64,000 nt of DNA from Desulfurococcaceae archaeon (GCA_023269825.1 JAGDWI010000001.1:306492-370491), one strand, 5' to 3'; shown: positions 1,230 through 53,957, numbered from the stretch's first letter. Program-made: numbers and translations. Notes: generated by a model not told the origin, from the letters alone.

Positions 1230-1991
1230 CTATACTGGTACCTTATCAACATATAGTATACCGGATAAACCGGGGACTCTCTTAATTGCTTTTACAACGG
1301 GAATAGCTACAGCTGTAACAATTAGAGCTTCAAATATGTATGCTACGAGGTAGTATATAGGACTAACCAAGTATAGGCTTCTAACGAAGTTTAAGTCACT
1401 TAAACCAAAAACACCCTCGTATACTGCTGGAACAGCGAAAATGAAGCATCCAAATGCCTTATCGACTTCTCTTGCTGCGAAAAACAATCCATATAATCCA
1501 ATAATCCTTGTTTTCGCTGAGTTGCTTCTAATGAGCTTAGGGATAAAGGGAGTTATTAATAAAGCAATTATTTTATCATAGAAAGCAATAGTGTAAACAT
1601 ACCATTGCTCTGTCACAGGATAAAATGGAGGTAGAAACATTGAGACAACAATTAGTATAAATAGCAGTATACTTGAAATCCACCATTTCCTAGTTATAAG
1701 TAAATATGCAGCAAGTGCCGATAACGCAGCAGCCGGTATGAATGGGATTCCATAAGGACTAGGAGCTGGTGTCAGAGTCTTAACAGTGTTACCGAGGAGT
1801 ACTGCTAGGGGGCCAGCTAAGGGACCCAGTATTAAACCGAAGATCGGGGACAATGCTGCACCTATATCCATACTAGCTGATGTACCAATTATGGGTAAAC
1901 CTGGTAGGAATAATAAGATGTAGTATAATGCAGCTCCAACTCCAATGAAAGCTACTATATATGCCGGTTTACTTTTTAAACTTGAACTCAT
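1230..1991 (-). CDS. ECF transporter substrate-specific (S) component-like membrane protein
   Basis: A 253-residue very hydrophobic protein with about six predicted membrane segments, a glycine/proline-rich stretch near residues 45-85 (ILGPLAGPLAVLLG), and a short basic N-terminus. Size and pattern match ECF S components, which bind the vitamin or nucleoside-like substrate in the membrane. The double ATPase follows 10 bases downstream, which supports this assignment. Its ATG lies only 11 bases from a perfect palindrome, so transcription is probably repressed by a dimeric regulator, most simply the divergent winged-helix/kinase protein. The substrate is unknown. A kinase neighbour suggests a phosphorylatable vitamin precursor or nucleoside, which is inference. 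Confidence 0.7.
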   Translation of the reverse strand: MSSSLKSKPAYIVAFIGVGAALYYILLFLPGLPIIGTSASMDIGAALSPIFGLILGPLAGPLAVLLGNTVKTLTPAPSPYGIPFIPAAALSALAAYLLITRKWWISSILLFILIVVSMFLPPFYPVTEQWYVYTIAFYDKIIALLITPFIPKLIRSNSAKTRIIGLYGLFFAAREVDKAFGCFIFAVPAVYEGVFGLSDLNFVRSLYLVSPIYYLVAYIFEALIVTAVAIPVVKAIKRVPGLSGILYVDKVPV

Positions 1992-2097: not shown

Positions 2098-3489
2098 ATG
2101 GCGCAAGTAATTGGAAGCAGGTTCAAAGAACTCTACCCATACGTGGTATTACTACCCACTAGTATCGAGGAGAAAATAGAGTACATAATGTCGCTTTTTT
2201 CATCGCCTGTAACTGTTGAGATATTGAGACTCTTTGAATGGGATAAGGAACTATGTCAAAAAGAAATCATTGTTTCTCTTAGCCAGCACTCAAATAAAAC
2301 AGTTATTAGTTCAATTAGGAAACTCGTATCACTTAATTTACTTGAGGAAAAAGATAAGGTGGAGATTAGAGGTAATCGTAGAGTTAGAGTGAAGTGCTAT
2401 AAGTTAACAGATATTGGTAAATGGTACAATATACTATTCAAGGACATCAATGAACTAGATAGCAAATTATTGCGGGAGGCATTAACGAATCTATCTGTAA
2501 TGTTCATGGCTAAAATACTACCTTTCTCGAATTACCTAAGAGTAAGTTTCATGGATTTCATTAACCAAGTATTGAGTAGCGCTATGGAAAGCGCTGCTAA
2601 ATCCAGGAGACACCTTGAATATGATTTACTAGTGTTTGGTTCTGTAGCACTGGATGTGTACTTGAAACCAGATGTAAGAATGTTCTCTGGAGGCGCAGGT
2701 GCCAACGTTGCATCACTAGCTTCAAACCTCGGGTTGAAAACAGGCTTCATAAGTAAAGTACCCGCTAACATCATTGGATCATATCTACTCGCTGAATTAA
2801 TCAATGAGGGAGTTGATGTGAGTTTATCAATAATGGATCAAGGTGTTGAATTACCAATATGCATCGTGTTTGAACCACTTGAACCCACGCAGTTAAAATG
2901 TACATGTAAGCCTCAAATGGACTTGAGATCTTTACCAGTCATAGATCGAGTCAATGAAGAAATAATTCAAGCATGCAACAACTCGCGATCAATATATCTC
3001 GGTGAAGGAGTAAGTAAAGTGTACTTAGAGTTGCTTAGCAAGATTAATAGAGAGAATAAAATCATAGTTTTCCGTCCGCATAAACTAGTACTCGAGCATT
3101 ATTTTGATGAATTCACGTCAATACTGCACTACTCGCCTATTCTTATCCTAAATGAGGAAAAAGAGCAAATAATGAGACGTAAGGGCATAGAAGTCCCGAG
3201 TGACTTATTCAAGATCGGAGTTAGGGAGTTAATCGTGACAAGAGGGTCAAAAGGCGCAACACTCTACGTGGAGAAAAGTGAACCTAAAACATTCAAGGCT
3301 CCGAGCGTTAACGCAATGAATACCGTTGGTGCAGGCGACGCCTTCTCAGCATCACTAATATACTATTTGCTTAAAAATGAGACAATAGAGGAATCAGTGA
3401 GAAAAGCCGTTTACTTATCTGCATTATCGACAACTCAGTTGAGCTCCAGAAAACACTTAGCTGAATTAAGCAAAACGATTAGCACTTGA
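2098..3489 (+). CDS. Winged-helix DNA-binding domain fused to PfkB-family sugar/nucleoside kinase
   Basis: A 463-residue two-domain protein. Residues about 25-120 form a winged-helix domain, with a basic wing region (IRGNRRVRVKC) and a LTDIGKW helix. Residues about 175-455 are a PfkB/ribokinase-like domain with the glycine-rich region FSGGAGANVAS and the terminal motif TVGAGDAF, whose aspartate (Asp414) is the expected catalytic base. In this family the kinase phosphorylates a sugar, nucleoside or vitamin precursor. Fusion to a DNA-binding domain suggests a regulator that senses, and may still phosphorylate, its ligand. The gene is divergent from the ECF transporter, across a spacer holding a palindrome. 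The regulon and ligand are inference. Confidence 0.82.
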   Translation: MAQVIGSRFKELYPYVVLLPTSIEEKIEYIMSLFSSPVTVEILRLFEWDKELCQKEIIVSLSQHSNKTVISSIRKLVSLNLLEEKDKVEIRGNRRVRVKCYKLTDIGKWYNILFKDINELDSKLLREALTNLSVMFMAKILPFSNYLRVSFMDFINQVLSSAMESAAKSRRHLEYDLLVFGSVALDVYLKPDVRMFSGGAGANVASLASNLGLKTGFISKVPANIIGSYLLAELINEGVDVSLSIMDQGVELPICIVFEPLEPTQLKCTCKPQMDLRSLPVIDRVNEEIIQACNNSRSIYLGEGVSKVYLELLSKINRENKIIVFRPHKLVLEHYFDEFTSILHYSPILILNEEKEQIMRRKGIEVPSDLFKIGVRELIVTRGSKGATLYVEKSEPKTFKAPSVNAMNTVGAGDAFSASLIYYLLKNETIEESVRKAVYLSALSTTQLSSRKHLAELSKTIST

Positions 3490-5530: not shown

Positions 5531-6439
5531 TTAAGGTTTAATAAGTTTTAATGCTGTTTCATAAGCTGCTCTATAGTCCAGTATTCCCTTAGGGGTCTCC
5601 GCAGCTAGTTTGAATAATTCAGCAATTACCTTGTTTTTAAGTGTACCTATTCTTAGTGCACCTACGCCATATACTCCTGGTAGAACTTCTTTGTCTTCGT
5701 CATTGGGTTCTAGTCCCTCTATGCCTGTTGGTGGAACAGCGTTTACGTCAGCTAGCACTCTGCATTTTCCTCCATAGTTTTTGAGAGTCTCGAGATCAAG
5801 GAGTCTGACTCCCGCTGCACCCGTAGCTAACACTATATCAGCGTTCTTAATTACTTCACCTATTTCCTCACGTGTTAATGCTTTTAATCCTTTTACTTTT
5901 TCAGCTTTAATCTCCTCGTTGATTTTCCGCGCTACTTTAACAGCTTTTTCCAGGCTACGAGATGTAATATAAACATTGGCTCCTTCAAGAGCGTATATTG
6001 TTGCAGCTGCGACTCCAACGGGCCCCGTGCCAGCTAGAATAGCTATGTTCTTGTTCTTGAAGTCGCCTAAACCATGTTTCATTAGTAATTCAAGTGTTTT
6101 AGCTACTGCTGCTGCAGCTGTAGTGTTTGCTCCCCGCGGGTCAACTATGATCGTGAACTCGAATGGGGGAAACATGGTTTTCTTAACTGCTTCCACTATT
6201 CTTTCCACTTTCTCTGCATCGTATCCTCCTATGAACATTTTCGTGTATTTCACTCCTTTCGGTCCACGCGGAAACATAGCGTCTTGGACGATTCTAACAG
6301 CGTCCTCTGGTTCAACGTTACCGTAGAGGAATATGTTAGCGTTTGGGAACAGATCTGTGACGAGCAATGGTTCGAATGGGCTTACGTGTTTATCGGTATC
6401 TAGGAAAAGGATTGCGAGTTTTCTCTCTTGTGGAGTCAA
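5531..6439 (-). CDS. mtdB: NAD(P)-dependent methylene-H4MPT dehydrogenase (MtdB/MtdA-like)
   Basis: A 302-residue cytosolic dehydrogenase that should interconvert methylene- and methenyl-tetrahydromethanopterin with NAD(P). The family is visible in the N-terminal substrate domain and in the Rossmann dinucleotide motif GTGPVGVAAATIYALEG near residues 138-154, followed by ITSR. It differs from the F420-dependent Mtd of methanogens, which lacks a classical Rossmann domain. The chosen start is a TTG at 6439 with GGTGAT eight bases upstream. It is transcribed divergently from ftr-fwd-mch across 159 bases, so substrate and product are shared with mch at the other end of that operon. NAD+ versus NADP+ preference cannot be told here. 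Confidence 0.85.
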   Translation of the reverse strand: MTPQERKLAILFLDTDKHVSPFEPLLVTDLFPNANIFLYGNVEPEDAVRIVQDAMFPRGPKGVKYTKMFIGGYDAEKVERIVEAVKKTMFPPFEFTIIVDPRGANTTAAAAVAKTLELLMKHGLGDFKNKNIAILAGTGPVGVAAATIYALEGANVYITSRSLEKAVKVARKINEEIKAEKVKGLKALTREEIGEVIKNADIVLATGAAGVRLLDLETLKNYGGKCRVLADVNAVPPTGIEGLEPNDEDKEVLPGVYGVGALRIGTLKNKVIAELFKLAAETPKGILDYRAAYETALKLIKP

Positions 6440-6598
6440 AGTACTATCACCACTGTTGTTAATTATTCTGATTCATTACTAAAATACTTTCCACAACGCA
6501 CAGATTTAGCTTTTAAACTGCTAAAACAATCATGAAGCATATCTTACCGCAATTTTTATTATCTTTATTAATTATTTTCATTTGGAGAGGGTGAACTT
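6440..6598. promoter_or_regulatory. Divergent promoter region of mtdB and the ftr-fwd-mch operon
   Basis: This AT-rich spacer serves both directions. Rightwards, a T-rich TATA-like stretch (TTTTTATTATC, about 6552-6562) and a strong Shine-Dalgarno (GGAGAGGGTG, 6583-6592) precede the GTG of ftr. Leftwards, a TTTAAAAGC element around 6507-6515 and GGTGAT precede the TTG of mtdB. Opposed promoters this close imply joint control of the C1 genes. I see no clear palindrome. Confidence 0.5.
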
Positions 6599-7534
6599 GT
6601 GTCATTCAAATTCATGGATGTTATAGTAGAGGATACTTTCGCGGAAGCTTTTCCTATGTATGCCACGCGGTTGCTGATAACTGCTTCAACGAGGAAGTGG
6701 GCATATATTGCGGCATCTAAAGCTACTGGTTTCGGTACATCTGTCATCGGTAGTCCAGGCGAGTGCGGCATAGAGGCTTTTATATCACCTAATCTAACTC
6801 CGGATCAAAGACCAGGCATATATATACAGATATATCACAACGACTTAGCTAGTTTAAAGTTTGTTACGTTATCGCGTGTAGGCCAATGTATTTTAACTTG
6901 CCCAACAACCGCGTTGTTCAATGGTCTTCCCAAGATTAAGAGAAAAATGAGTCTAGGTGGAGCGATCGCGAAATTCGGCGATGGCTTCGAGAAAAAGGAC
7001 ACTCTTTATGGTAGAAGTGTCTGGAGAATACCTGTCATGGAGGGAGAGTTCATTATAGAGGACTCTGTTGGAGTAGTGAAAGGAGTTGCTGGTGGGAATA
7101 TCTTAATACTAGCCAAAAACTCGGAAGCGGGTTTGGAGGCCGCTGAGAGAGCAGTGCGGGCAATAAAGAGACATGTTAGAGGCGTAATAACTCCGTTCCC
7201 AGGAGGAATAGTTAGATCGGGGTCTAAGGTAGGATCACTGAAGTACCCGAAGTTAAGGGCAACAACTAATCACCTTTATTGTCCAGTTCTCAAAGGAGTA
7301 GTGAAAGAGACCAGAGTACCAGAGAACGTGAACTCTGTATACGAGATCGTTATTAATGGGTTGAGGAAGGATTACGTAGTGAAAGCCATGGGTGTAGCGG
7401 TTAAAGCAGCTGCATTAGTGCCTGGAGTAGTGTTGATTACTGCTGGTAATTATGGAGGTAAACTTGGACCATACCATATATACTTGAAGGAAGCACTAGA
7501 AGCCTCCAGGGACATTGATGTGAAACCGTGTTAA
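6599..7534 (+). CDS. ftr: Formylmethanofuran:H4MPT formyltransferase
   Basis: This enzyme moves the formyl group between methanofuran (or an analogue) and tetrahydromethanopterin in the cytosol. The 311-residue product is slightly longer than the usual 297 or so. It shows the family N-terminus VEDTFAEAFPMYATRLLIT and the ATGFGTSVIGSPGE region. The conserved C-terminal lobe runs to the end, so the gene is intact. GTG at 6599 is chosen because a strong Shine-Dalgarno lies just before it. It is the first gene of the operon, 30 bases ahead of the fwdDB start. Linkage to fwd and mch makes the H4MPT pathway assignment secure. Confidence 0.93.
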   Translation: MSFKFMDVIVEDTFAEAFPMYATRLLITASTRKWAYIAASKATGFGTSVIGSPGECGIEAFISPNLTPDQRPGIYIQIYHNDLASLKFVTLSRVGQCILTCPTTALFNGLPKIKRKMSLGGAIAKFGDGFEKKDTLYGRSVWRIPVMEGEFIIEDSVGVVKGVAGGNILILAKNSEAGLEAAERAVRAIKRHVRGVITPFPGGIVRSGSKVGSLKYPKLRATTNHLYCPVLKGVVKETRVPENVNSVYEIVINGLRKDYVVKAMGVAVKAAALVPGVVLITAGNYGGKLGPYHIYLKEALEASRDIDVKPC

Positions 7535-7564
7535 AACAAAGTGTTCCAAGTGGGAGGAGTCACT

Positions 7565-9313
7565 ATGAGTAAAACCGAGTTAGAGAAAGCTAAAGCATTC
7601 GTGTTAAACACTGGGAGGTCATTAATGCAGGGTATTAGCATGGAGGAGGAGAGTAAGTGGAGTAAGAAGTACTTTGACGCAGTAGCTGTTGTAGAAATGA
7701 ACCCTATTGATATCTCGAGTCTAGGAGTAAGAGACCGCGTTAAAGTATACAATGAGCATGGCTCAATCGTGTTAAGAGTGAAACCAAGCAACAATGTACC
7801 GCCTGGAACAATATTTATACCTATGGGTCCTTGGGCTAACATGTTGACTGACCCGGAGACAGATGGAACTGGGATGCCTAGATTGAAGGGAGTTAATGTA
7901 TTCGTTGAACCCACGGATGAACCTCTAACCAAACTAATTGATCTCCTTAAAGCACTTGGAGCTAAGCAACTAGAAGTATACATGGAGGATGCTCCGCTGA
8001 AAACAGGGGATAAGAAGGTTGTGGAGAACGTTGTGTGCCCCTTCTGCGGCGATTTATGCGATCACTTGACCATAGAAGTAGACGGTAACAAGGTAGTAAG
8101 AAACATAGGTGGTTGCGCCATATCTTCCGCAAAGTTCCTTAATTACCATAGACACAGGATATTGAGACCCTACATAAGAGAGCAGGGTAGACTAGTAGAA
8201 GTCGACTTAGATAAAGCAATAGATGCCGCCGCCGATATTCTCGCAGAATCAAAGTATCCATTGATTTTTGGACTAGCTAGTACGGACGTAGAGACAAATA
8301 GGTACGCAGTTGAATTAGCTGAATTAACACATGGTGTTGTTGACAATACATCCGTGTTCTGTCACGGGCCAACAGCGCTCGCTGTTCAGGAAGTTGGAGC
8401 CGTGAGGTACACGTTTGGAGTAGCAGTTCACTTAGCTGACTTAGTTATATTCTGGGGCTGTAACCCTCTTGAAGCTCATCCAAACCATGTCGCCAGAGTC
8501 GTTATGCGTGAAGGAAGGTTCGTGAGAGGGAGAAAGGAGAGAAAGATAGTGGTTGTTGATGCGAGGAGAACGCCGACAGCGAATTTAGCAGATTTATTTA
8601 TCCAGATCGAACCCGGAAGAGACTACGAGTTATTGACAGCGCTTAGAATGGCAATCAGGGATCTCGATATTGAGGCTCCGACAGTAGCTGGTGTACCGAG
8701 GGATAAAGTAGTAGAGTTAGCTGAAATGATGAGAACAACTAAGTACGGTGTAATATTCTTTGGCCTAGGTTTAACGATGACTGGTGCTAAGTACAAGAAC
8801 ATTGTAGCCGCGATTAAACTCGTCCAGGAGTTAAACGAGTGGACAAAGTTCGGTATCTTACCGATGAGAGGCCACTACAATGTCGCGGGTTCGAATCAAG
8901 TATCATTGTGGACAACTGGTTATCCATACGCTGTCGACTATGCTAGAGGCTTTCCGAGAATGATTATCGGTATGACGAGCGCAACTGACCTATTGAGTAA
9001 TGGTGATGTAGATGCAGCACTAATAATCGCTAGTGATCCAGTTGCTCATCTCCCAAGGAAAGCCGTTGAGCACTTATCGAAGATACCGGTGATAGTTATT
9101 GATGCAAAGTGGTCTCTAACCACAGCGTTCGCGGACGTGATCATCCCCGGTGCATATGTTGGAATAGAGTGCGAGGGTTCAGCTTATAGATTAGATGAAG
9201 TACCCATCAGGTTGAAGAAAGTAGTTGATCCACCTCCATGTATCTTATGTGATTCAGAAGTCTTGAGGAAACTAGTTGAAAAAGTCAAAGCTAAGAAAGG
9301 TGTGAGTTCATGA
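7565..9313 (+). CDS. fwdB: Formylmethanofuran dehydrogenase, fused D and B subunits
   Basis: A 582-residue natural fusion. Residues about 8-125 are the FwdD molybdopterin-dinucleotide-binding domain (LNTGRSLMQG, FIPMGPWANM, TGMPRLKG). Residues about 155-575 are FwdB, the catalytic molybdenum/tungsten subunit that reduces CO2 to formate or does the reverse. The [4Fe-4S] ligands are visible as Cys158, Cys161, Cys165 and Cys184. Cys266 in CHGPTA is the expected metal ligand, a cysteine rather than selenocysteine. ATG at 7565 is chosen over an in-frame GTG at 7541 because GGGAGGAG lies at 7552-7559. The retained cofactor residues set it apart from bacterial FhcB, which has lost them. The stop overlaps the fwdA start (ATGA). 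Confidence 0.93.
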   Translation: MSKTELEKAKAFVLNTGRSLMQGISMEEESKWSKKYFDAVAVVEMNPIDISSLGVRDRVKVYNEHGSIVLRVKPSNNVPPGTIFIPMGPWANMLTDPETDGTGMPRLKGVNVFVEPTDEPLTKLIDLLKALGAKQLEVYMEDAPLKTGDKKVVENVVCPFCGDLCDHLTIEVDGNKVVRNIGGCAISSAKFLNYHRHRILRPYIREQGRLVEVDLDKAIDAAADILAESKYPLIFGLASTDVETNRYAVELAELTHGVVDNTSVFCHGPTALAVQEVGAVRYTFGVAVHLADLVIFWGCNPLEAHPNHVARVVMREGRFVRGRKERKIVVVDARRTPTANLADLFIQIEPGRDYELLTALRMAIRDLDIEAPTVAGVPRDKVVELAEMMRTTKYGVIFFGLGLTMTGAKYKNIVAAIKLVQELNEWTKFGILPMRGHYNVAGSNQVSLWTTGYPYAVDYARGFPRMIIGMTSATDLLSNGDVDAALIIASDPVAHLPRKAVEHLSKIPVIVIDAKWSLTTAFADVIIPGAYVGIECEGSAYRLDEVPIRLKKVVDPPPCILCDSEVLRKLVEKVKAKKGVSS

Positions 9314-11034
9314 GTGAGATCCTCATCAAAAACGGCATTGTATTCGACCCCCTCAATGGAATAAACGGAGAAACACTCGACATAGCCGTAAAAAACGGCA
9401 AGATAGTTGATCTCTCCCAAATCAATCCTAGTACGGCACTAGTAATAGATGCTAAAGGTAAAGTAGTAATGCCGGGAGGCATAGATATACATAGTCACAT
9501 AGCTGGAGCGAAGGTGAATATCGGTAGGCTGATGAGGCCTGAAGACCATTACTTAACGAATAAACCGCACAAACTACCGATTCGACGAGCGGAAACAGGT
9601 TTAACAGTACCAAATGTTTTCAGAATAGGATACGATTATGCTAGAATGGGTTACACGCTAGTCGTAGAGCCTGCGACTCCGCCAATTAAAACTAGGCATA
9701 CGCACGAGGAACTAGATGATATACCAATAATTGATAAAGCCGCCTTCCTACTAGTTGACTCTAACTGGTTGGCGTTAGATTTGATTACAATGGGTTCAAG
9801 GGAACTGCTTGCAAGTTATTTAGCTTGGTTATTATCCACTACTAAGACTTATTCTCTGAAATTAGTTGACCCCGGTTCCGATATAACCTGGGTTTTAACG
9901 GGTAGAGGTATAGATATAGATGACCAAATCCCAGCATACAATATAACCCCCAGAGACATCATTAGGGAAATGGGTTACGCTGCTCAATTACTGGACCTGC
10001 CTCATAAACTACATATTCACTGTAATAGGTTAGGTTACCCAGGCAACTACTTAACAACTATTAAAACAATGGATATAACGAAAGATATTCCGAGATTAAG
10101 TGATACACCAGTTTTACATGTTACTCATGTTCAGTTCACAGGTTATAAGGGTGATTGCTGGTCAACTCTTGAAAGCGGCGGTGAAGACATAGCTAAAACA
10201 CTGAGAGCAAATCCCCATGTTACACTGGATCTAGGTCAAGTTATTCTTGGTAGACCTTCTACGACGATGACTGCTGATGCTCCATTCGAGTACGTATTGT
10301 ATCATTTAACTAGGTGGAAGTGGGTTAACGCAGACACTGAGGTTGAATCAGCAGCTGGTATCGTACCATATGCTTATAAGAAGCGAAGCTATGTGAACAC
10401 TATTCAGTGGGTTATAGGATTAGAGATTGCGTTGTTAACAAGTGATCCCTGGAGAGTGATACCAACCACTGATCACCCTAACGCTGGGCCATTCAAAGAC
10501 TACCCCGTTATGTTTTCGTGGCTTATTAGTAGGAGAGCGCGCGAAGAATTAATGAAGGAGGTTAATCAACGTGCTCTAAGAAAAGCTGTTCTACCAGCGC
10601 TAGAAACAGAGTTCACACTATATGATTTAGCGATTATGACGAGAGCAGCACCAGCTAAACTACTTGGTTTAGGCAAGTTTAAAGGGCACTTAGGTATTGG
10701 AGCCGATGCGGACATAGCTATTTATGATTTAAATCCGAAGGAAGTAGATCCGAGCAGAGAATACGAGAAATTCGTGAAATCATTTAAGAGAGCCTGGCTG
10801 GTGATCAAGGGAGGGGAAATAGTTGTCAAAGAAGGAGAAATCGTTAAGACAGTGTATGGTAAAACCTATTACGCTGAACCAGAAATACCAGTCGAGTTGA
10901 AGAAAGAGCTGGAAGCATTCCTCGCGAAAAAATTCAAGGAATACTACTCGATCACAAAGGATTCCTTCATAATAAGAGAACATGAACTAAGGAACCCGGT
11001 GAAAATACCCTTGGAAACCAGGATCAAGGGGTGA
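9310..11034 (+). CDS. fwdA: Formylmethanofuran dehydrogenase subunit A
   Basis: A 574-residue amidohydrolase-fold subunit that condenses formate with methanofuran, or hydrolyses formylmethanofuran, at a binuclear zinc site. Metal-site motifs are visible: DIHSH with His61 and His63, HIHCN and HVTHVQ for further histidines, and TTDHPN with Asp388. Length is close to the usual 570 or so. It overlaps fwdDB by four bases and fwdC by four bases, so translation is probably coupled. In known complexes FwdA receives formate through a tunnel from FwdB. The residues needed for this half-reaction look intact. Confidence 0.94.
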   Translation: MSEILIKNGIVFDPLNGINGETLDIAVKNGKIVDLSQINPSTALVIDAKGKVVMPGGIDIHSHIAGAKVNIGRLMRPEDHYLTNKPHKLPIRRAETGLTVPNVFRIGYDYARMGYTLVVEPATPPIKTRHTHEELDDIPIIDKAAFLLVDSNWLALDLITMGSRELLASYLAWLLSTTKTYSLKLVDPGSDITWVLTGRGIDIDDQIPAYNITPRDIIREMGYAAQLLDLPHKLHIHCNRLGYPGNYLTTIKTMDITKDIPRLSDTPVLHVTHVQFTGYKGDCWSTLESGGEDIAKTLRANPHVTLDLGQVILGRPSTTMTADAPFEYVLYHLTRWKWVNADTEVESAAGIVPYAYKKRSYVNTIQWVIGLEIALLTSDPWRVIPTTDHPNAGPFKDYPVMFSWLISRRAREELMKEVNQRALRKAVLPALETEFTLYDLAIMTRAAPAKLLGLGKFKGHLGIGADADIAIYDLNPKEVDPSREYEKFVKSFKRAWLVIKGGEIVVKEGEIVKTVYGKTYYAEPEIPVELKKELEAFLAKKFKEYYSITKDSFIIREHELRNPVKIPLETRIKG

Positions 11035-11906
11035 TTGAGTTGTCTACAGCCACTTACTCCCTATACTTCAAAACTAAACCCATGGTTTTAATTGATGCTA
11101 GGCACTTAACACCAGACGAATTCGCTGGGAAAAAACTAACAGTTATAAAGAACACGGTTATACGGGAAGGAGGAAGAAAAACTAGTCTAAGCGAATTATT
11201 CGACATCGAGGGACCCGAAGTAGCACCAAGCGATCCAGCGCAAATAACGATAATCTTTGAAACAGGATCCAACAAGCTATGTTTCATCGGCTACAAGATG
11301 AGTAAGGGGAAAATAATAGTAAAAGGCGACGCGGGCCACCTAGTGGGCTACAAAATGAAAGGAGGCAGTATACTGGTTGAAGGAAATGCAAGAGACTATG
11401 TTGGTGCAAAAATGAGGGATGGTACAATAGAAATCCGCGGAAACGTTGGGCACAGGCTAGGCGGGAAACTACTCGGAGAAAAACCAGGTAAAGGTATGAG
11501 AGGAGGGACAATAATTGTTCACGGCAACGCTGGGTCAGAGATAGGGGTTGGTATGGAGAAAGGATTCATACTAGTTGAAGGAAACGCGGGTAATTTAACC
11601 GGATCAGATATTATCGGAGGAAGCATAGTTGTTAAAGGAGACAGTGGCATATATCCAGGCGCTGGGATGATTGGAGGAAGAATAATAATAGGTGGAAGAG
11701 TGGAAGCATTATTACCTAGTTTCTATGTTGATTCATTTATACCATCTATTTCAGTTAAGGGAATAAAATTCGATAAACCATTCATGGTTTTCCTCGGAGA
11801 CGTAGTCGTGGGAGGAAAAGGCTTACTATACCTCTCATATAATGAAAACACTGGATTATTAGAGTACTATAGATCATTAATTGAGGAAAGAGGTGTAGAA
11901 GTTTGA
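11031..11906 (+). CDS. fwdC: Formylmethanofuran dehydrogenase subunit C
   Basis: A 291-residue structural subunit resembling the C-terminal beta-helix of glutamate synthase. Successive repeats of the form GG-x-I-x-V-x-G-x-A/D-x-G are visible from about residue 85 to 230 (for example GGSILVEGNA, GGTIIVHGNA, GGSIVVKGD). In characterised complexes FwdC binds both the A and B subunits. The start is either GTG 11031, overlapping fwdA, or TTG 11040, which sits better behind AAGGGGTGA. The stop overlaps the TTG of mch. FwdE, F, G and H are absent nearby, so the electron-transfer partner is not identified. Confidence 0.92.
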   Translation: MIELSTATYSLYFKTKPMVLIDARHLTPDEFAGKKLTVIKNTVIREGGRKTSLSELFDIEGPEVAPSDPAQITIIFETGSNKLCFIGYKMSKGKIIVKGDAGHLVGYKMKGGSILVEGNARDYVGAKMRDGTIEIRGNVGHRLGGKLLGEKPGKGMRGGTIIVHGNAGSEIGVGMEKGFILVEGNAGNLTGSDIIGGSIVVKGDSGIYPGAGMIGGRIIIGGRVEALLPSFYVDSFIPSISVKGIKFDKPFMVFLGDVVVGGKGLLYLSYNENTGLLEYYRSLIEERGVEV

Positions 11907-12859
11907 GTATATCTATGAATAAATTAGCTGTTAAACTAGTCAACGAAATGTTATCTAGGGAAAAAGAACTTGAAGTTACGAGTACGAAGATAGCTGGAGC
12001 AACAATAATTGATGCAGGTATAAAAACACGTTCAAGTTTTGAAGCAGGAGTATATGTGTCGAGAATATGTCTTGGAGGATTAGCGAGAGTTTCAATCACA
12101 GGCTATAAAATCGACGACTACCATATACCGGCGGTTGAGGTTTCAACAGATCACCCGGTGGAAGCATGTTTAGCTTCTCAACTAGCGGGTTGGAGAATAA
12201 ACGTTAAAGAATTCTTCGCTAATGGAAGTGGCCCCGCTAGAGCACTAGCTCGAAAACCCAAGAAATTATTTGAGAGAATAGGTTACAGCGAGGAATCCGA
12301 TGAAGCCGTATTAGTCCTAGAAACAGACAAATACCCAGATGAAGAAGTAGTTAGATACATTAGTGGCGAAGCAAAGATTAAGCCTGATAACTTGTACTTA
12401 GTACTAGTTTCACCTTCAAGCTTAGCTGGCACCGTGCAAGTTAGTGCCCGAATAGTTGAGACAGGGATATTTAAACTCGATACTTTGGGTTTCAATTTAA
12501 AAACCATTGTTTACGGTTACGGAGTATGTCCTGTTGCACCTTTACACGTTAACGCGTTGAAAATGGCCGGTAGATCAAACGATATGTTACTATATGGGGG
12601 AGTAACTTACTATATAGTAGATTACCCCGATGACGCTAAACTAATTGAATATGTGAGTAAAACACCTAGTATATCTTCAAAAGACTACGGTAAATCCTTC
12701 ACTGAACTAGTTGACCAGTATGGATGGGATTTCCTATATAAAGTTGATCCATCAATCTTCGCTCCAGCAGTTGTTATTATTAATAACACTAGAACCGGTA
12801 ACACGTTGTTCTCGGGTAAAATAAACTACGAGCTCCTCAGGAAAGCGTTAACTAGTTAG
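11903..12859 (+). CDS. mch: Methenyl-H4MPT cyclohydrolase
   Basis: This cytosolic enzyme interconverts formyl-H4MPT and methenyl-H4MPT, linking Ftr to MtdB. The 318-residue length is typical. Family stretches seen include LGGLARVSI, VEVSTDHPVEACLASQLAGW near residues 80-98, NGSGPARAL, YGYGVCPVAPLH and LLYGGVTYY. The TTG start at 11903 overlaps the fwdC stop and has GAGGTG seven bases upstream; an ATG at 11915 is the alternative. It is the last gene of the ftr-fwd-mch operon, ending three bases before the convergent ligase gene. Confidence 0.94.
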   Translation: MSISMNKLAVKLVNEMLSREKELEVTSTKIAGATIIDAGIKTRSSFEAGVYVSRICLGGLARVSITGYKIDDYHIPAVEVSTDHPVEACLASQLAGWRINVKEFFANGSGPARALARKPKKLFERIGYSEESDEAVLVLETDKYPDEEVVRYISGEAKIKPDNLYLVLVSPSSLAGTVQVSARIVETGIFKLDTLGFNLKTIVYGYGVCPVAPLHVNALKMAGRSNDMLLYGGVTYYIVDYPDDAKLIEYVSKTPSISSKDYGKSFTELVDQYGWDFLYKVDPSIFAPAVVIINNTRTGNTLFSGKINYELLRKALTS

Positions 12860-12862
12860 TTT

Positions 12863-13765
12863 TTATTTTTTAGCTCTGCTTACAACATACTTCACAATCT
12901 CCAAGGCTATGTCTATGTCAGGGTGAACGCTCTGTAAACCATGCCATCCGGGTTGACTATTAACTTCGAGTATATACAAATTATCCCTTGTTCTAACTAT
13001 GTCGACTCCAGCTATTTCGCATTCAAGTACTTTAGCAGCTCTAATAGCTAAATCTTCAACCTCTGGTTCAACCTTCTTCAATGGTATTGGAGCACCTCCC
13101 CTAGCGATATTGGTTTTCCAGGATCCAGCGGGAGCCTTCCTAATCATAGCGGCTAGTACCTCGTAGCCTAATACGAATACACGTATATCTTCTCCGCGAT
13201 GCTCAATATACTCTTGAAGATAAACTGTGTGTCCAGTGAATTGTAAAGACCGCGTGGCCTCCCACATTACGTCACGGTCGTTTAGAATAAACCGAGTTGA
13301 ACCATGGCCTCTTGATCCAAACATAGGTTTTAAAACAATAAACTTTGAACCCAGAAGATCGACTTTTCTGAGAGCTAGATTCGAGCGCTCGCTCACAATT
13401 GTCTTTGGGACAGGTAACCCATGCTTCTTCAATTCATGTAGTGACCTGAATTTATCCACGCATTTTTCAATGGCTGAGGGCTTATTGAAGACAGGCACTC
13501 CTTGATCTTGTATGGCATATAGTAGATCTATTCTATATATAGCTTGGTCGAGGCTTACTCTGCCAAACGGCCTAATGATTACTGCTGATAAATAATCCAC
13601 GATATCTATGTCGTCTATGTAAACCCTTAAGCGATCATGATCTATAAAGGACAAAACGTCCCTAAATCTGAAACAGAATGGCTTATGATTCAATGATTCA
13701 ATAGCTCTAACGAGATTTCGGGAAGCCCACCCATTAGGGTTCCTCGTCAAAATCCCTATATTCAA
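12863..13765 (-). CDS. RimK-family ATP-grasp glutamate ligase, probably MptN (H4MPT) or CofF (F420)
   Basis: A roughly 300-residue ATP-grasp enzyme. The sequence shows a RimK-like N-terminal domain, a nucleotide-binding region (KFIVLKPMFGSRGHG), LQEYIEHRGEDIRVFVLG, and the metal-binding end ILEVNSQPGWHGLQ. Archaeal members add L-glutamate to tetrahydrosarcinapterin precursors (MptN) or to F420 (CofF). Next to mch, MptN is the more likely reading, but the two cannot be separated by eye. A TATA-like ATTAAATTTAAT around 13789-13800 predicts transcription from about 13770, so TTG at 13765 is preferred to the more upstream TTG at 13786. It converges on mch, with three bases between the stops. Confidence 0.78.
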   Translation of the reverse strand: MNIGILTRNPNGWASRNLVRAIESLNHKPFCFRFRDVLSFIDHDRLRVYIDDIDIVDYLSAVIIRPFGRVSLDQAIYRIDLLYAIQDQGVPVFNKPSAIEKCVDKFRSLHELKKHGLPVPKTIVSERSNLALRKVDLLGSKFIVLKPMFGSRGHGSTRFILNDRDVMWEATRSLQFTGHTVYLQEYIEHRGEDIRVFVLGYEVLAAMIRKAPAGSWKTNIARGGAPIPLKKVEPEVEDLAIRAAKVLECEIAGVDIVRTRDNLYILEVNSQPGWHGLQSVHPDIDIALEIVKYVVSRAKK

Positions 13766-13965
13766 AACAAGCACCCAGAACTGCAACCATTAAATTTAAT
13801 CCTACAATTGTTAACTCTTCTAGAGACTTATTAAATACTAAAACTTTTAACGATGAGTCGTGAATAATCAATAAGTTTTTAATTTACCTAGCTTTATTAA
13901 ACCCCTGTTTTTTTATAGTGATCCATTAAGGCATAATCCTTTAGAGCTATTGAGGTGTAGTAGTC

Positions 13966-14706
13966 ATTACGAGAATAATCTACGTTGAAGCGGAAAACAT
14001 TCCAGATGCGTGGGAGAAGTCACTTGTTCAACTCTCGGAGAAAGGATTAATCATTAACACAGAGTACGGTGAGAAATCCATTGATGCACCAGCTGTCATC
14101 TTAATTACATCTCCTTTCTCGGAGCCCAGAATACATCTCAAAGGAGTAGTAGCTGGATCACTTAAAGGCCTACTTGAATACGTTGACGAAGTCGTTAAAG
14201 GTACACATGATCATCTCGTAGAGAAATATGATTACACATATCACGAGAGATTATTCTCATATAGGCTTCCCTCTGGGGTAGTGATAAATCAAATTGAGAA
14301 AATCATCGAGAAACTCAAGAAAGCACCCTACTCGAGGAGAGCGCAGGCTATAACGTGGCAGCCATGGAAAGACCTTGACCTAGATCACCCTCCGTGCCTT
14401 CAGAGATGTTGGTTTAGAGTAATTGAAGGTAAGCTCGTAATGCACGTACATATGAGAAGTAATGATGCGTTTAAAGCAGCATTCATGAACATGTATGCTT
14501 TCACGGAGTTACAGAGGTATGTAGCTGAGCAAATTAAAGTAGAACCAGGATACTATATGCATGTTGCTGATTCTTACCACGTATATGAACGGGATTGGAA
14601 GTGGTTCAATAAATTCATTGAGCAAATAAAGAACGGTGAATCAAAGAAGAGGTGGATCACCACGCAAGAGTACCTTAAAAAATTAGAGTTAAGTAATATT
14701 GGTTGA
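13966..14706 (+). CDS. thyA: Methanogen-type thymidylate synthase, no AUG/GUG/UUG start visible
   Basis: This protein makes dTMP from dUMP and a methylene-pterin donor, presumably methylene-H4MPT here. The family is visible in the catalytic region DHPPCLQRCWFRV (nucleophile Cys144), in MRSNDAFKAAFMNMYAFTELQ, and in the end HVADSYHVYERDW. Coding sense continues well upstream of the first GTG (14281), through ENIPDAWEKSL and an alpha/beta segment typical of the family. The frame is closed by a stop at 13951. In that stretch there is no ATG, GTG or TTG, so ATT at 13966, eight bases after GAGGTG, is the best start. A one-base assembly error restoring GTG 13955 is possible. Confidence 0.82.
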   Translation: MTRIIYVEAENIPDAWEKSLVQLSEKGLIINTEYGEKSIDAPAVILITSPFSEPRIHLKGVVAGSLKGLLEYVDEVVKGTHDHLVEKYDYTYHERLFSYRLPSGVVINQIEKIIEKLKKAPYSRRAQAITWQPWKDLDLDHPPCLQRCWFRVIEGKLVMHVHMRSNDAFKAAFMNMYAFTELQRYVAEQIKVEPGYYMHVADSYHVYERDWKWFNKFIEQIKNGESKKRWITTQEYLKKLELSNIG

Positions 14707-14740
14707 ATACTAGTCATGCTTCAGGCAACTCCTCTAATAC

Positions 14741-15658
14741 TTAGCTAAGAAGTTTATCTATTTTTATCACTAAAGCAGGGTAATGCTTAATTTTATTCAT
14801 ATCCCTCCATTTTACTTTGTCAAAGCTAGTTCTATGCAGATTCTCCAGCATATCAATCGCGGTTCTACCTAAACCGTGACCCATTGATTTCTCAGCTATT
14901 CGCGCTATTTTAAGTATTCGAGGTAAACCCAGCCAGTAACCATCATACGCTACGGGTGTAGGGTACTCAGTGAACTTGTTTTTAAGCAATTTCCCCAATA
15001 TGTACCCTATACCTCCAAGATCTATAACGCCTTTAACGAACGAGGGCCTTGTGGATATCGCTAGCGAAGATAATTGCTTAGGTTTAAATGTTCTATCGGA
15101 ATCCACAAGCATAACGTTGACGTCTTTATCTATTGTTCTAACTATGTTTTCTCTAATTTCCCTAGCTACTTTATCAGCGTTCCTCAATGGTAGTGAAACG
15201 TAGTAGTACGGCAAGTTAGTGGTATCTACGCCGGCTTCAGAGTATGGTTTAATAAAGTGATGTAGCCCCCCATATTTCAATGATAGTTTCTTATGTGCAG
15301 CTAATTGCTCTAATGGAATTTCCTCGATTAATCGCAGGAATTCATCACCATGTATGAATAAACCATAGAGTACTCGGCTCCATAAATACGCGTTAATGAT
15401 TTTAGTAAAGTACTTGGAAAAAGCGTCTACTCTGATCACGCTTTCATCGTAAATATTCCCCATGGCGACTGAAACCGCTTTCTCAGAAATCACTAATATC
15501 GATCCATTATCTAAGTGTTTTTCATAATTATTGATAATGGCTTTAACTACACTGGTTCCCGGGAACCAGTACTTGAAGGGTTTTTTGACTACTCTTAGAT
15601 GTACGTATTGAACTCTCTTACTTCCAGGTGCTTCAGTGAAATGATTGCAGGTAATCAT
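14741..15658 (-). CDS. CofE-like F420-0:L-glutamate ligase family protein
   Basis: A 305-residue protein related to coenzyme F420-0:gamma-glutamyl ligase, which adds glutamates to F420-0 with GTP. Supporting stretches are NGSILVISEKAVSVAMG near residues 50-66, then GVDTTNLPYYYVSLPLRNADKVAREIRENI and VMLVDSDRTFKP. The metal and nucleotide positions appear only partly conserved relative to methanogen CofE (its usual TDTFGRPW is VDSDRTFKP here). Substrate could therefore be F420 or a related polyglutamylated cofactor. It lies between thyA and mtrH in the C1 region, convergent with thyA. Family assignment is good; exact reaction is not. Confidence 0.68.
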   Translation of the reverse strand: MITCNHFTEAPGSKRVQYVHLRVVKKPFKYWFPGTSVVKAIINNYEKHLDNGSILVISEKAVSVAMGNIYDESVIRVDAFSKYFTKIINAYLWSRVLYGLFIHGDEFLRLIEEIPLEQLAAHKKLSLKYGGLHHFIKPYSEAGVDTTNLPYYYVSLPLRNADKVAREIRENIVRTIDKDVNVMLVDSDRTFKPKQLSSLAISTRPSFVKGVIDLGGIGYILGKLLKNKFTEYPTPVAYDGYWLGLPRILKIARIAEKSMGHGLGRTAIDMLENLHRTSFDKVKWRDMNKIKHYPALVIKIDKLLS

Positions 15659-15760
15659 GCGTAAAAACCAATTCTCAATTTAAAGTGCTTGTACCTTGGA
15701 TTTCCATGGTTAAATTTGTTGTTGATTAAAAATAAAAATATTTAAGCTACTTGGCTTTAA

Positions 15761-16636
15761 CTACAGGTTCAATAAGTTCTCTTGGTTCCTATATAGGTAC
15801 CTGTACGAAGTGTACACTAAGTACGCTGAAGGCAACATGTATTTATGTAATTCTATTGGACCATATAGAACGAAGTCTCCGCCCATTAGTAATGGAGAAA
15901 TATCAGATGTTATTTCCATAGCATCTACTCCTTCTTTACTGTATTTCTGTTTGAAGTGTTTCTTCATCGAGGAAACAGCGTTGTGTGCTCCTGAACCCAC
16001 TGGAAGACCATATTCGTTTTTAATGTGTATCATGGTTCTCAGCGAAATAGATAAGCTAGGTATATCTATGACAAATGTATCCACTAAGGGTGTATCTATC
16101 CCAATAGATGCTAGCTTTGGCAGCATTTCACTGGCGATTTTCAATCTTTCTTTCACATCTATGATTTTATGCGTGTAAAGTAGTAAGACAGCGTACCTAG
16201 CTCCGCGTTCTCTTAGAAAACTTAGTTCTTCATCACTAGTTTTAGGATTTATGGAGTTAATTATTATTCTATCCATTAACCCGACTTCGCTAGCATAGTT
16301 TACTGCTGCTTCCATTACGTCTCTAGATACTGCATCAACGAGGAAGGGTTTACTGGTTAAATTAGCCACGAAATCCATGTACTTGACAATGGCTTTAGGC
16401 GAATCTGAAGCTACATCGATAAGACCAGGTATCCCCGTTTTATCTGAGAGTTCCTCTTGCGAATTAATTAATGACTCTGCTAGCGATTTATCGAATAAAC
16501 CCTCCTTTGAATCCTGGACTAATTTGTGTCCATGATAGAATATGGTGCCGATCATTACTGGTGGATTTGCAGGGAACCCACCTATTCTTACTCCCTTTAG
16601 CTCCAGTATTTTCGGTTGTTTTTTGAATTTAAACAT
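15761..16636 (-). CDS. mtrH: MtrH-family methyl-H4MPT methyltransferase, stand-alone
   Basis: A 291-residue TIM-barrel methyltransferase homologous to subunit H of the Mtr complex, which moves methyl groups between a corrinoid protein and tetrahydromethanopterin. Recognisable stretches are the N-terminal FKKQPKILELKGVRIGGFP, MIGTIFYHGHKLV, TGIPGLIDV, INSINPKTSDEEL, and GSGAHNAVSSMKKH. No MtrA-G subunit or separate corrinoid protein gene is seen in the window. It is single-gene, with a TATA-like AAAAAATATAAG about 40-50 bases upstream. Stand-alone MtrH relatives elsewhere work with soluble corrinoid proteins in methylotrophy or methionine synthesis; which applies here is unknown. Confidence 0.85.
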   Translation of the reverse strand: MFKFKKQPKILELKGVRIGGFPANPPVMIGTIFYHGHKLVQDSKEGLFDKSLAESLINSQEELSDKTGIPGLIDVASDSPKAIVKYMDFVANLTSKPFLVDAVSRDVMEAAVNYASEVGLMDRIIINSINPKTSDEELSFLRERGARYAVLLLYTHKIIDVKERLKIASEMLPKLASIGIDTPLVDTFVIDIPSLSISLRTMIHIKNEYGLPVGSGAHNAVSSMKKHFKQKYSKEGVDAMEITSDISPLLMGGDFVLYGPIELHKYMLPSAYLVYTSYRYLYRNQENLLNL

Positions 16637-17086: not shown

Positions 17087-17842
17087 CTATTTTTCCTTGA
17101 AAGATATTTCTATTTCCATAATTGTCTCTGGGACGCCTTTTAGTGATCTAAGCATGCCTTTTATAGTGTTCTTGATGATGCTTTTAACGAAGGGGTTTAG
17201 CGTTATGGGCTCATTGTTTACTTTCACTTCAACAATTGATGCAACCGGGCACCACTCGGCTTTACCTCTGAGATACGCTGATACAAGGTCTCTGCATGTA
17301 GGATATCCACAGGTTTGACAGTTTAATAGACTTGTCTGATTGAGAATAAAACTTATTAACCGTGTCTCTAGGTAATCCGCGAGCTTTGATTCTTCACCAA
17401 TGGTGAAAACAGGTATTTTTAATGATTTCTCGAGTTTGGAATGTGTTACTACTGCTACTACGTTGCTTGTTTTCGCAGTTAACTCCTCAATCTCCTCCTC
17501 TCCTTTAACAATGAGAACTGCTTCCCCGAGTTTACTCTCCTTAAATCCCTCAACTACTACGATTGGTGTTTTCGCATAGTTTAAAGCGTTCTCGAGTAAG
17601 TCTACGTGTTGATTGACATACACGACAGCTGTACCAGGTGCGGAAGCCACTACAATTTCAGCACCGCTTTCAAAGTACTTCTTAGTATCCTTTTCCTCGA
17701 GATCTACGCCGCTTTTACAGTGTTTTATTACACTAACTCTGTAGCCTCTACTAGTTAAAAGTGATACTATTTTTGAGGCCACTGTGGTTTTTCCTCGTTT
17801 TGACTCTGAGGAAACGAATTTAACTATGTAAGGTGTAGGCAT
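17087..17842 (-). CDS. mobB: MobB-like molybdopterin guanine dinucleotide protein with C-terminal Fe-S domain
   Basis: A 251-residue protein. Residues 1-165 form a MobB-type P-loop GTPase domain (SSESKRGKTTVASKIV; later VVVVEGFKESKLGEA), which helps attach GMP to molybdopterin. From about residue 175 there is C175-x2-C178-x4-C, then a later Cys-Pro (EWCPV), a pattern of four-cysteine Fe-S domains (CQTCGYPTC). The same pairing occurs in methanogens. The likely client is the Mo/W dinucleotide cofactor of the Fwd enzyme encoded about 8 kb away. The ATG directly follows the stop of the ECF T gene, so it seems to be the last gene of the transporter operon. Confidence 0.82.
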   Translation of the reverse strand: MPTPYIVKFVSSESKRGKTTVASKIVSLLTSRGYRVSVIKHCKSGVDLEEKDTKKYFESGAEIVVASAPGTAVVYVNQHVDLLENALNYAKTPIVVVEGFKESKLGEAVLIVKGEEEIEELTAKTSNVVAVVTHSKLEKSLKIPVFTIGEESKLADYLETRLISFILNQTSLLNCQTCGYPTCRDLVSAYLRGKAEWCPVASIVEVKVNNEPITLNPFVKSIIKNTIKGMLRSLKGVPETIMEIEISFKEK

Positions 17843-42991: not shown

Positions 42992-45900
42992 CTATTTAAC
43001 CTTTGCTATTTTACCAACTCTTGGCTCATATATTTCGCCGCTTCGTTTAAGCTCCATCAACACTTCCTTCACGAATTCTCTTTCAAATCCTTCTTCTCTC
43101 GCTTTATTGTATAACTCGTTAACCTCTATTTCTCCGCCAACGTCTTCCAGCAGCTTAAATAAGAATTCCACGAATCTCTTCCTCTTCTCTCTCCTCGATG
43201 CTGATACCCCTGATTCAAGTATATCAATGTCTATTCTCCCGCTTTCAACATCAAAGCCTACTCTTGAGAGAGTAGTCATCATTAACCTGATTGCTTCTTC
43301 GGCATCTTCAATTGTGGCTTTCTGCTTTAACGCCATTTTAGCGTGTGCTTCAGTGAGCCTTATCAATGCTTCTAGTTGCCTAGGAGTTATAGCTATTGCT
43401 GAAATAGTTGTTCCTTCACCCGTTGTCAACGATGCTTGTCTCAAGTTAACGTAGAATTCTTCTATTAGCTTAGCTGCTTCGGGTGTTAACTGTGGTCTTA
43501 TGTATCTTCTAGCGTAGCTAACGTATTTTTTGAGTAGCTGGGGATCTATGAATCCTCTTGCTTTCTCTTCCTCGGTGTGAATACCCAGTATGTGTTTAGC
43601 TAGTTTCCTGTCTTGCTCCGATTGCGGGATGTCTTGAACTATGAAAATTAAATCAAATCTCGATAAAATAGTTGGAGGAAGGTCAATGTTCTTACTTACT
43701 GGTTGAGTTGGATCATATCTACCATACTTCGGGTTCCCTGCTGCCAGCACCGATGTTCTAGCATTTAACCTCGCGACAATACCTGCTTTAGCAATACTAA
43801 CTGTTTGTTGTTCTAGTGCTTCGTGAATAGCGCTCCTATCTTCCTCCCTCATTTTATCAATTTCATCAATGCAGTTGTGTACGATTAATCCCTCAGCAAG
43901 GAAATTATGTAATCCGGGAACAAATAGATCATATACGAAGCCATTGTAGTCCACGTATTCTACTTTAACCACTCTATCTAGGTAGTAGTCCCTATTGATA
44001 GCTAATGCTACAAGCTCCCTACTTTTCTTCGAGAGCTTATCATACCCTATTTCCTCAACCGCATTGAGAAGCGTTTCCCTTGTTAATTGTTTACCTGAAG
44101 ACAGAGTTTGCACTACTCCTAGTGCTTCGCTTGTAAGCTCCCTGGTTACGTCATTACTTATTTCTCTAACTATTTCAATGGATAGTCTTCTAGGCACTGG
44201 TTCTTCTTCGGGTAAAGCAAGATCTAGGCCTGGTATATCTACTTTTTCAGCTTTCAAGCTATAGGGTTTAATTACTTGGATAAATTTAAGTAAGTTGGTT
44301 CTACCAGTGATAATTACTTCTGCATTCTCTCCGCGTGATTTAACCTTGGAGTATACATCGAATCTGCGTAGAGCAATTGATAATGCTTTTGCTTCATTCA
44401 TCTTCCTCAAAGTAATAATTGCTTCCACGGTGATAATCGGTTCCTTCTTATTCCTGGTTTGCATAGTGGTTATTGATCCACTCGAGTCAAATAAACCTGC
44501 CATGAAAGCTGCTAAAGTGTTATCTGGGAGTTTCAAGAGGCGCCTTAAGTTCTCTTCAGTGAAGTACCTCGTGATATGGGATAATAGGTGTGAATCTATT
44601 TTAATTTTAATAATAGTGCTCAAGCACTTTGACTCCTCTGACTCAGTGCACTTCGATTTTGAACGCTCTAATACTGGGTTTCTTCCAGTTATTCTCGACA
44701 CTACGTCGAGTAACTTATTAATGTACTTTTCCTCATCTATCTGTTCAATGACGATGAATTCTTTTCCATCAAAGTTCTCGACCCTGCCAACCCTGTGAAC
44801 AAACCCCATTAAGTAACCTAGTTCCGGTGTTACCTTATTTACCGTAAGGTCTTCGATCACGGATTGAATCTTATACTTTAAAGGCCTACTTACTGTGTCA
44901 ACTATTTCCTTACTCTGCTTCAGTAATCCTGCTTTAACATATATTTTATCATCCTCAATCAGTAATTCCCCGTTATGTACTCTTCCTCTGAATCCACTTA
45001 TGATCCTTAAGAGCTCTTCTCCTCCCGGGGTTTCAATGATAACTAGCCAATCTTCGGGTACGATATCTATAATGTATACGTCTTCCACGTTACTCGGGAT
45101 TCTGAGAAGAGATACGAGTGTATCACCCGGTTTAAATGTTCCTGCAGGCCTCCAATTCAAGTTGTCTCCGTCAAGTAAGAGGTGATCAGGCGTCAATATG
45201 ACCTCGTGCCCACTTTCGAGCACTAGTTTCACGAGTTTACCGCTCCATGGTTTCCTCATTATAATAGTGGATTTACTTTTCTCTGATGTTAATTTACAGG
45301 GGTTTAAGCTTACAACCACATGCTCCAAGTAGTTTAACTCCACAGGTTCATTTTTCGTGAAAGCTTTTACTGCTACTTCTTCTTCGAATAATTCACTTAT
45401 TTTAACGTACTCGTTGTCTACGAGTACACGTGTATCTGGGTGTAAGCATGCAACTCCCCCATCAGCTAAAACTAAGGCGCCTGCTTCCAGGTAGTATTCA
45501 CCTGTGAGTTTATCCCTTAACACTGTTGCAGTTAATCCAGCAGCTGTTGAGCCTTTTCCACTAGTGTACAGTCCTCGTGGAGCTAATCTAGCTGTGAACT
45601 GTAGTAACTGTGATTTTGCTGTACCAGGGTCACCTGTTATTAATACATGTATGTCTCCCCTGATCCTCGTCCCGTCGGGAAGCATTTTGGGAGATCCACC
45701 GAAGAGAAGTAGAGCAATAGCCTCCTTGATATCCCAGTAACCATAAATACCCGGCGCTATGCTGGCAACTATTTTCTCCCTGATCCATGGGTCTCTCGCA
45801 AGCTCCCATATCTTCTCCTCATCTTCCCTAGTGATAACTATTTCTTCTAGTACTTTTTCCTGGACATCAATGTGGTTTACATCAATGTAGAAAGCAAATA

Positions 45901-51076: not shown

Positions 51077-51174
51077 ATAAGGTATACACCAATATTAGAT
51101 TTTAATGTCCTTATATAAATAAATATTTATAAATACTTGGTGAACATTTAATTATGAAGAGGTGTACCCACTAA

Positions 51175-52341: not shown

Positions 52342-52437
52342 CTATAGTGTCCAAGTATAAGTTCAATCCATTTTTTTAAAGATTATAAATTTCCCTATAT
52401 GCTTTTAATTAAGAATATGTTATAAAGAGAAGGTTAG

Positions 52438-53949: not shown

Positions 53950-53957
53950 TCTCCAAC

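Follow-up and report, generated by a model that had tools for sequence, protein, structure and literature searches.

The H4MPT/MFR genes, those of tetrahydromethanopterin (H4MPT)- and methanofuran (MFR)-linked one-carbon (C1) metabolism, have been found in some Ignisphaera and not in others, and also in other Crenarchaeota (Chistoserdova 2016, PMC5020050), where the role of the H4MPT branch in archaea without methanogenesis, carbon monoxide dehydrogenase/acetyl-CoA synthase (CODH/ACS) and formaldehyde activation was called enigmatic. In Bathyarchaeia, a methylene-H4MPT dehydrogenase nearer the NADH-dependent bacterial enzyme has been reported (PMC7886697, 2021), and NAD(P)H-type operons are already known in archaea. 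Here we report the analysis of such a module in a window of 64,000 nucleotides, the whole stretch of DNA analysed, which covers C2:306492-370491 of the source genome G000 (1.50 Mb, 3 contigs, 96.6% complete). The host is a Desulfurococcaceae-type crenarchaeon, a hot-spring archaeon related to Ignisphaera. It was compared with a sister genome, G104 (92% complete), which like G100 belongs to the same genus, and with a survey set of 229 genomes of the host's class, 20 of which were taken to closer examination; G000 itself was covered by family-profile searches and single stretches rather than by tiling. Judged from its sequence, the module is an archaeal methyl-branch operon in which the F420-dependent dehydrogenase Mtd has been exchanged for the NAD(P)-type MtdB, and what distinguishes G000 from the known cases is the trimming of the pathway at both ends. 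This makes it a test case for the role of the H4MPT branch in archaea that lack methanogenesis, CODH/ACS and formaldehyde activation.

The core genes mtdB, ftr, fwdDB, fwdA, fwdC and mch occupy 5.5-12.9 kb of the window (Table 1) and are all intact, with mtdB on the minus strand and ftr-fwdDB-fwdA-fwdC-mch on the plus strand, overlapping or nearly so; an earlier note, made from the sequence alone, had described them as an intact set within about 11 kb, and the curated models confirm it. Five relatives share the gene set, and one Bathyarchaeota contig has it in a rearranged form, which excludes a chance grouping. Between G000 and G104 the ratios of nonsynonymous to synonymous substitution (dN/dS) are around 0.03-0.09 for the module genes, with synonymous distances near or at saturation, showing that the operon is under purifying selection and in use. 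For MtdB, the family profile matches the M. extorquens MtdA structures 1lu9 and 6tlk from end to end (E 2e-57), so that the window enzyme has both the Mpt_N domain and the MtdA-homologous Rossmann domain of the MtdA/MtdB family, and the NAD(P) type proposed for it earlier holds. An Arg/Lys pair behind its second Rossmann strand is aligned with the NADP-dependent MtdA, and NADP is probably the coenzyme used. The FwdD domain forms the N-terminal part of the fwdDB open reading frame (ORF; NF042908, 3e-31), while FwdB can be aligned over its whole length with 5t5i_B, a tungsten enzyme, and keeps the CPFCG-LCD cysteines, presumably those of the cluster, together with the CHGP motif. FwdA matches 8rja_A (8e-173) and 6s6y (3e-80), the latter of which we take to be a bacterial Fhc, and retains the conserved His, Lys and Asp motifs of 8rja_A, presumably residues of the active site. 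With FwdA, B, C and D all present and the iron-sulfur (Fe-S) and metal-ligand cysteines in FwdB, the complex is of the archaeal Fwd/Fmd type, and the cofactor-competent FwdB of the earlier note is borne out. A bacterial Fhc identity (no FwdD, degenerate FhcB) was rejected, as FwdD is present and the FwdB motifs are conserved.

The surrounding steps of the pathway are in large part missing. McrA (PF02249) is absent from G000 and 17 relatives, with both methanogen controls positive, in accordance with the non-methanogenic crenarchaeon suggested before. Mer and Fae (PF08714) are absent genome-wide from both G000 and G104, extending beyond the window the absence of mer and fae first remarked there, while eight mch-bearing relatives do have Fae, seven being of the MtdB type. 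In addition, F420-type mtd and cofD (PF01933) are absent from G000, and the CODH/ACS corrinoid subunits CdhD/E from G000 and G104, every other Mch genome among the 20 being positive for them; these two are the only Mch genomes tested that have neither CODH/ACS nor Fae. The module therefore shares Fwd, Ftr and Mch with the methyl branch of hydrogenotrophic methanogens, but G000 is without their CofD, Mtd, Mer and Mcr. As in the Wood-Ljungdahl pathway of Bathyarchaeia (PMC7886697), with Bathyarchaeota among the nearest outside relatives in the MtdB tree, a bacterial-type dehydrogenase is combined with archaeal Fwd, Ftr and Mch; however, those organisms are reported with F420 synthesis and CODH/ACS, whereas G000 has neither CofD nor CdhD/E, and with CdhD/E and Mer absent it does not hold an archaeal Wood-Ljungdahl pathway. 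The MtdB, Mch and Ftr steps are shared with the Fae-MtdB-Mch-Fhc formaldehyde oxidation of methylotrophs, to which the module had been likened; this likeness is not supported, since Fae is missing and FwdA and FwdB belong to the archaeal Fwd type, FwdD being present and the FwdB motifs kept. The patchy presence of H4MPT/MFR genes in closely related organisms is as described in PMC5020050, but no Mtd/MtdB exchange, F420 loss or CODH/ACS- and Fae-free state is described there.

We then present an overall view of the two dehydrogenases across the class, in which MtdB occurs in 10 and Mch in 21 of the 229 genomes. Among the 20 genomes examined, F420-dependent Mtd is found in G086, G127, G133, G005 and G004, all having Mch and none having MtdB, and Mtd and MtdB never occur together. 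CofD (PF01933) is present in four of the five Mtd genomes and in none of the ten with MtdB; for Mer above cut-off, the numbers are three of five and none of ten. Where it was read (G086, G127, G133 and G005), the Mtd-type operon runs ftr-mtd-fwdDB-fwdA-fwdC-mch followed by an mptN-like gene, and the window-type MtdB operon has the same order minus mtd, with mtdB beside ftr. The mutual exclusion of Mtd and MtdB in what is largely one operon, together with the CofD pattern, indicates that MtdB substitutes for Mtd where F420 is missing. Even within one genus, G127 and G133 have Mtd, CofD and Mer, while G124, G125, G131 and G132 have MtdB and none of the three. The exchange of one enzyme in the operon coincides with the absence of F420 synthesis, and this shows an archaeal C1 pathway freed from F420 by a single-enzyme swap, with natural before-and-after pairs in one genus. 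A literature search gave no report of the exclusivity pattern or of the trimmed state, although the 2019 survey of the H4MPT branch (Adam et al.) may hold part of it; the clean split between Mtd/F420 and MtdB in one crenarchaeal order and genus, and the CODH/ACS-free, Fae-free window lineage, appear to be new.

As for the origin of MtdB, its named relatives belong to Desulfurococcaceae and Ignisphaera metagenome-assembled genomes (MAGs), to a single Vulcanisaeta MAG, to Bathyarchaeota and to a Nitrososphaerales MAG represented by two contigs. A tree built from 29 sequences places the window enzyme and five crenarchaeal module-type enzymes in a well supported clade, which groups with weak support with Bathyarchaeota (L026, L028 and L036) and Nitrososphaerales. 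A second crenarchaeal clade (G100, G126, G129, G143 and Vulcanisaeta) sits among other Bathyarchaeota. For Mch, the tree groups G000 and G104 together with G100 and G143. The simplest reading, with deep branches poorly supported, is that MtdB was transferred at least two times from Bathyarchaeota-like donors. On two Bathyarchaeota contigs (L028:8866-9813 and L036:1918-2862), a second, very divergent MtdB paralogue lies head-to-head with the normal one. The second-type mtdB is located away from ftr, and in G100, G126 and G129 it stands beside CODH/ACS-related genes (CdhD-family, RACo, CooC-like and ADP-forming acyl-CoA synthetase-like). A conserved protein of 260 amino acids (aa) adjoins it at L027, L029, L030/L049 and L035 (G100, G143, G126 and G129), all in genomes without Mer. 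This protein gave no match in Pfam, NCBIfam or PDB sequence searches; its model is weak (predicted local distance difference test, pLDDT, 56), and the fold matches to methylenetetrahydrofolate reductase (MTHFR; E about 5e-4 to 1e-3, template modelling (TM) score about 0.45) are mixed with other TIM barrels. It may be a candidate F420-independent methylene-H4MPT reductase, as a weak lead. It was not seen in 309 kb of G000, where no genome-wide search was made.

What the trimmed pathway does can be approached from its ends. Without Fae, Mer and CODH/ACS, the recognised ends are CO2 and methylene-H4MPT, which narrows its purpose to supplying, or clearing, C1 units. We consider it fairly probable that the module is a working F420-independent leg between CO2/formyl-MFR and methylene-H4MPT, most likely serving C1 exchange for ThyA and serine/glycine metabolism; the best reading is neither formaldehyde oxidation nor the Wood-Ljungdahl pathway. 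FwdABCD would interconvert CO2, methanofuran and reduced ferredoxin with formyl-MFR, Ftr would move the formyl group onto H4MPT, Mch would cyclise it to methenyl-H4MPT, and MtdB, replacing the F420-dependent Mtd step and having its nearest outside relatives in Bathyarchaeota, would interconvert methenyl- and methylene-H4MPT with NAD(P)H. Detached from CODH/ACS, Fae and Mer in G000 and G104, the leg would exchange C1 units between CO2 (or formate) and a methylene pool on which the neighbouring ThyA would draw, as would serine/glycine metabolism through serine hydroxymethyltransferase. The assimilatory direction is favoured, the sequence being compatible with either. NADPH and ferredoxin would donate or accept the electrons, with ferredoxin probably balanced by the group-4 membrane hydrogenases of G000. 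Two large subunits of membrane-type [NiFe]-hydrogenases are encoded in this genome, both carrying RxCxxC and DPCxxC motifs, and one is accompanied by a GltD-like flavoprotein and a ferredoxin (G000 C3:2143-10611, L012). In G125 and G132, a homologous set is found immediately upstream of mtdB (L025:1018-9915, L048:11182-19999), which suggests a connection between this set and the pools of ferredoxin and NAD(P)H used by the C1 module.

Several points weigh against this account. The MtrH relative of the window and a URO-D (uroporphyrinogen decarboxylase)-type protein hint at an input of methyl groups; the weakly MTHFR-like 260-aa protein of G104 (L151:1459-2226, close to mfnF) might carry the pathway on to the methyl level; and the literature search gave no biochemical test of any archaeal MtdB. 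In addition, beta-ribofuranosylaminobenzene 5'-phosphate (beta-RFAP) synthase, the committed step of H4MPT synthesis, was not detected in G000 and G104 (TIGR00144). The sole match there is weak and fragmentary, in a galactokinase-like GHMP protein, while most relatives score E 1e-28 to 1e-47, and the carrier may therefore be taken up from outside, be the product of an enzyme not yet recognised, or not be H4MPT. The earlier note had counted on H4MPT biosynthesis genes in the genome, and the outcome is divided: beta-RFAP synthase is not found, while the MptN relative and the methanofuran genes are present. The latter (mfnF, mfnE and mfnB) are kept around 10-12 kb from mtdB, MfnB being assigned at G000:C2 299909-300958 (TIGR03123, 2.7e-88) and MfnF by PF04476 (2.9e-56) nearby. 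It is conceivable, though doubtful, that the host is an H4MPT auxotroph which imports the carrier or a precursor, perhaps by the ECF (energy-coupling factor)-like system encoded next to the module, substitutes NAD(P)H for F420 and has in the DUF2193 protein an unrecognised partner enzyme, the enzyme set staying under selection.

The alternative that survives best, which we rate as unlikely but above the others, is an oxidative role, in which oxidation of methylene-H4MPT to CO2 would supply NAD(P)H as well as reduced ferredoxin, from which the membrane hydrogenases would make H2. The hydrogenase genes with the GltD-like/ferredoxin set upstream of mtdB in G125 and G132, and their presence in G000, would fit it, as would Fae in the eight mch relatives. 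The methylene groups might come from formaldehyde that condenses spontaneously, from the glycine cleavage system or from methyl delivery by MtrH/URO-D; MtrH-like, URO-D and corrinoid protein genes follow the module in G143, and URO-D and corrinoid protein genes lie by it in G132. However, with neither Fae nor Mer in G000 and G104, formaldehyde and methyl-H4MPT have no recognised enzymatic route to the methylene level. Improbable in our view is a decaying Wood-Ljungdahl remnant, accidentally kept after the loss of CODH/ACS, F420 and H4MPT synthesis: relatives including the same-genus G100 do have CdhD/E plus the module, the two trimmed genomes are without RFAP synthase, CdhD/E and Fae, and partial loss of the branch has precedents in archaea (PMC9635834), but all genes are intact, dN/dS is <0.1 despite near-saturated synonymous sites, and the operon order is preserved. 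There is very little chance that incompleteness of the two genomes conceals fae, cdh and RFAP synthase and that the true pathway is Fae- and CODH/ACS-linked as in the Ignisphaera relatives, since identical gaps in both would need independent origin, G000 has only 3 contigs, and the locus beside mfnF where G100 has its mfn genes adjoining the second mtdB and ACS genes is present in G000 and occupied by other genes.

Next to mtdB, just outside the interval of the earlier note and not listed in it, lies a DUF2193 gene. The family occurs in 10 of the 229 genomes; the gene adjoins mtdB in G000 and G104, the H4MPT operon in G005 and Bathyarchaeota L026, an aquaporin-like gene (assigned by eye) in G125, G129 and G133, and a corrinoid protein gene in G126. 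The proteins of G000 and G104 are 94% identical (dN/dS 0.025), and numerous His, Asp, Glu and Cys positions are invariant in the alignment. In methanogens, DUF2193 is reported to be well conserved and to have cysteines that might bind metal, and its abundance in M. voltae is reported to be higher on pyrite (PMC9431491). Its structure is predicted as all-helical (pLDDT 75.5, predicted TM score (pTM) 0.82), and a fold search against the PDB gave nothing better than E 0.18 (TM about 0.15), so that no function is proposed from the fold. From its neighbourhoods, it is plausible that DUF2193 is a C1 enzyme, and this archaeal orphan family is now tied to C1 metabolism.

Table 1. Coordinates of the C1 module and its neighbours in the window, with the supporting match
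Feature	Position	Strand	Match
Membrane protein like ECF-transporter S component	1230..1991	-	Weak Pfam ECF-ribofla_trS, under cut-off
Protein with C-terminal PfkB-family kinase domain	2098..3489	+	Pfam PfkB 9e-36; syntenic in G104
DUF2193 protein, 533 aa	3650..5251	-	PF09959 3e-210
mtdB, NAD(P)-type methylene-H4MPT dehydrogenase	5531..6439	-	Pfam Mpt_N (PF09176) 8e-19
ftr, formylmethanofuran:H4MPT formyltransferase	6599..7534	+	TIGR03119 1.6e-119
fwdD-fwdB fusion, molybdopterin/tungstopterin catalytic subunit of formyl-MFR dehydrogenase	7541..9313	+	TIGR03129 7e-154
fwdA, amidohydrolase-type subunit of formyl-MFR dehydrogenase	9310..11034	+	TIGR03121 3e-213
fwdC	11031..11906	+	TIGR03122 1e-63
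mch, methenyl-H4MPT cyclohydrolase	11903..12859	+	TIGR03120 6e-113; tree
MptN-like ATP-grasp glutamate ligase	12863..13786	-	NF040720 8e-68, under equivalog cut-off
thyA-like thymidylate synthase, probable non-ATG start	13966..14706	+	PF00303 3e-20 on portion from 14281
CofE paralogue (F420_ligase family)	14741..15658	-	PF01996 4e-13
MtrH-family methyltransferase	15761..16636	-	PF02007 2e-74; NF002142 1.5e-93
MobB-like protein with Fe-S domain (molybdopterin/tungstopterin guanine dinucleotide synthesis)	17087..17842	-	PF03205 1e-19

Among the genes flanking the core, the thyA, the MptN-like ligase and the CofE relative named in the earlier note are all found, while its mtrH scores below the TIGR01114 cut-off and is a relative of the MtrH family, an identity as subunit H of the Mtr complex being rejected. 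The mptN-like gene adjoins mch in most operons examined within the class, and it is retained with thyA beside mch in G000, G100 and G143. The thyA gene exceeds its mechanical ORF: the frame is open from about 13954 with no ATG, GTG or TTG before 14281, so that translation probably starts at a codon such as the ATT at 13966, and full-length relatives lie at the equivalent position in G100 and G143. A true CofE was rejected as the identity of the CofE-like protein, the match being far under the CofE equivalog cut-off. Such CofE paralogues occur near H4MPT modules with or without F420, CofD-less genomes included, and the substrate is therefore probably a cofactor other than F420. The MobB-like protein possibly serves FwdB. 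On the other side, the N-terminal part of the PfkB-domain protein resembles, by eye, a winged-helix domain, and the ECF-like membrane protein, whose gene stays near DUF2193 in G104, may be involved in cofactor or vitamin uptake tied to the module. ECF-like transporter genes adjoin the module in G000 (1-1991) and G104 (L149:18720-19998), and an ECF S-component gene lies near the Mtd-type operon in G086.

Farther along the window, at 49775-55868, a URO-D-type methyltransferase homologue lies beside a sugar-type ABC transporter, and in G132 (L048) a homologue of 60% identity accompanies a corrinoid protein gene close to the C1 operon. In addition, the MCM helicase ORF at 42992-46702 (1236 aa) carries an apparent intein, running from CLHPDTRV (after GGVA) to VHN (before CIDEIDKM, in the Walker B region).

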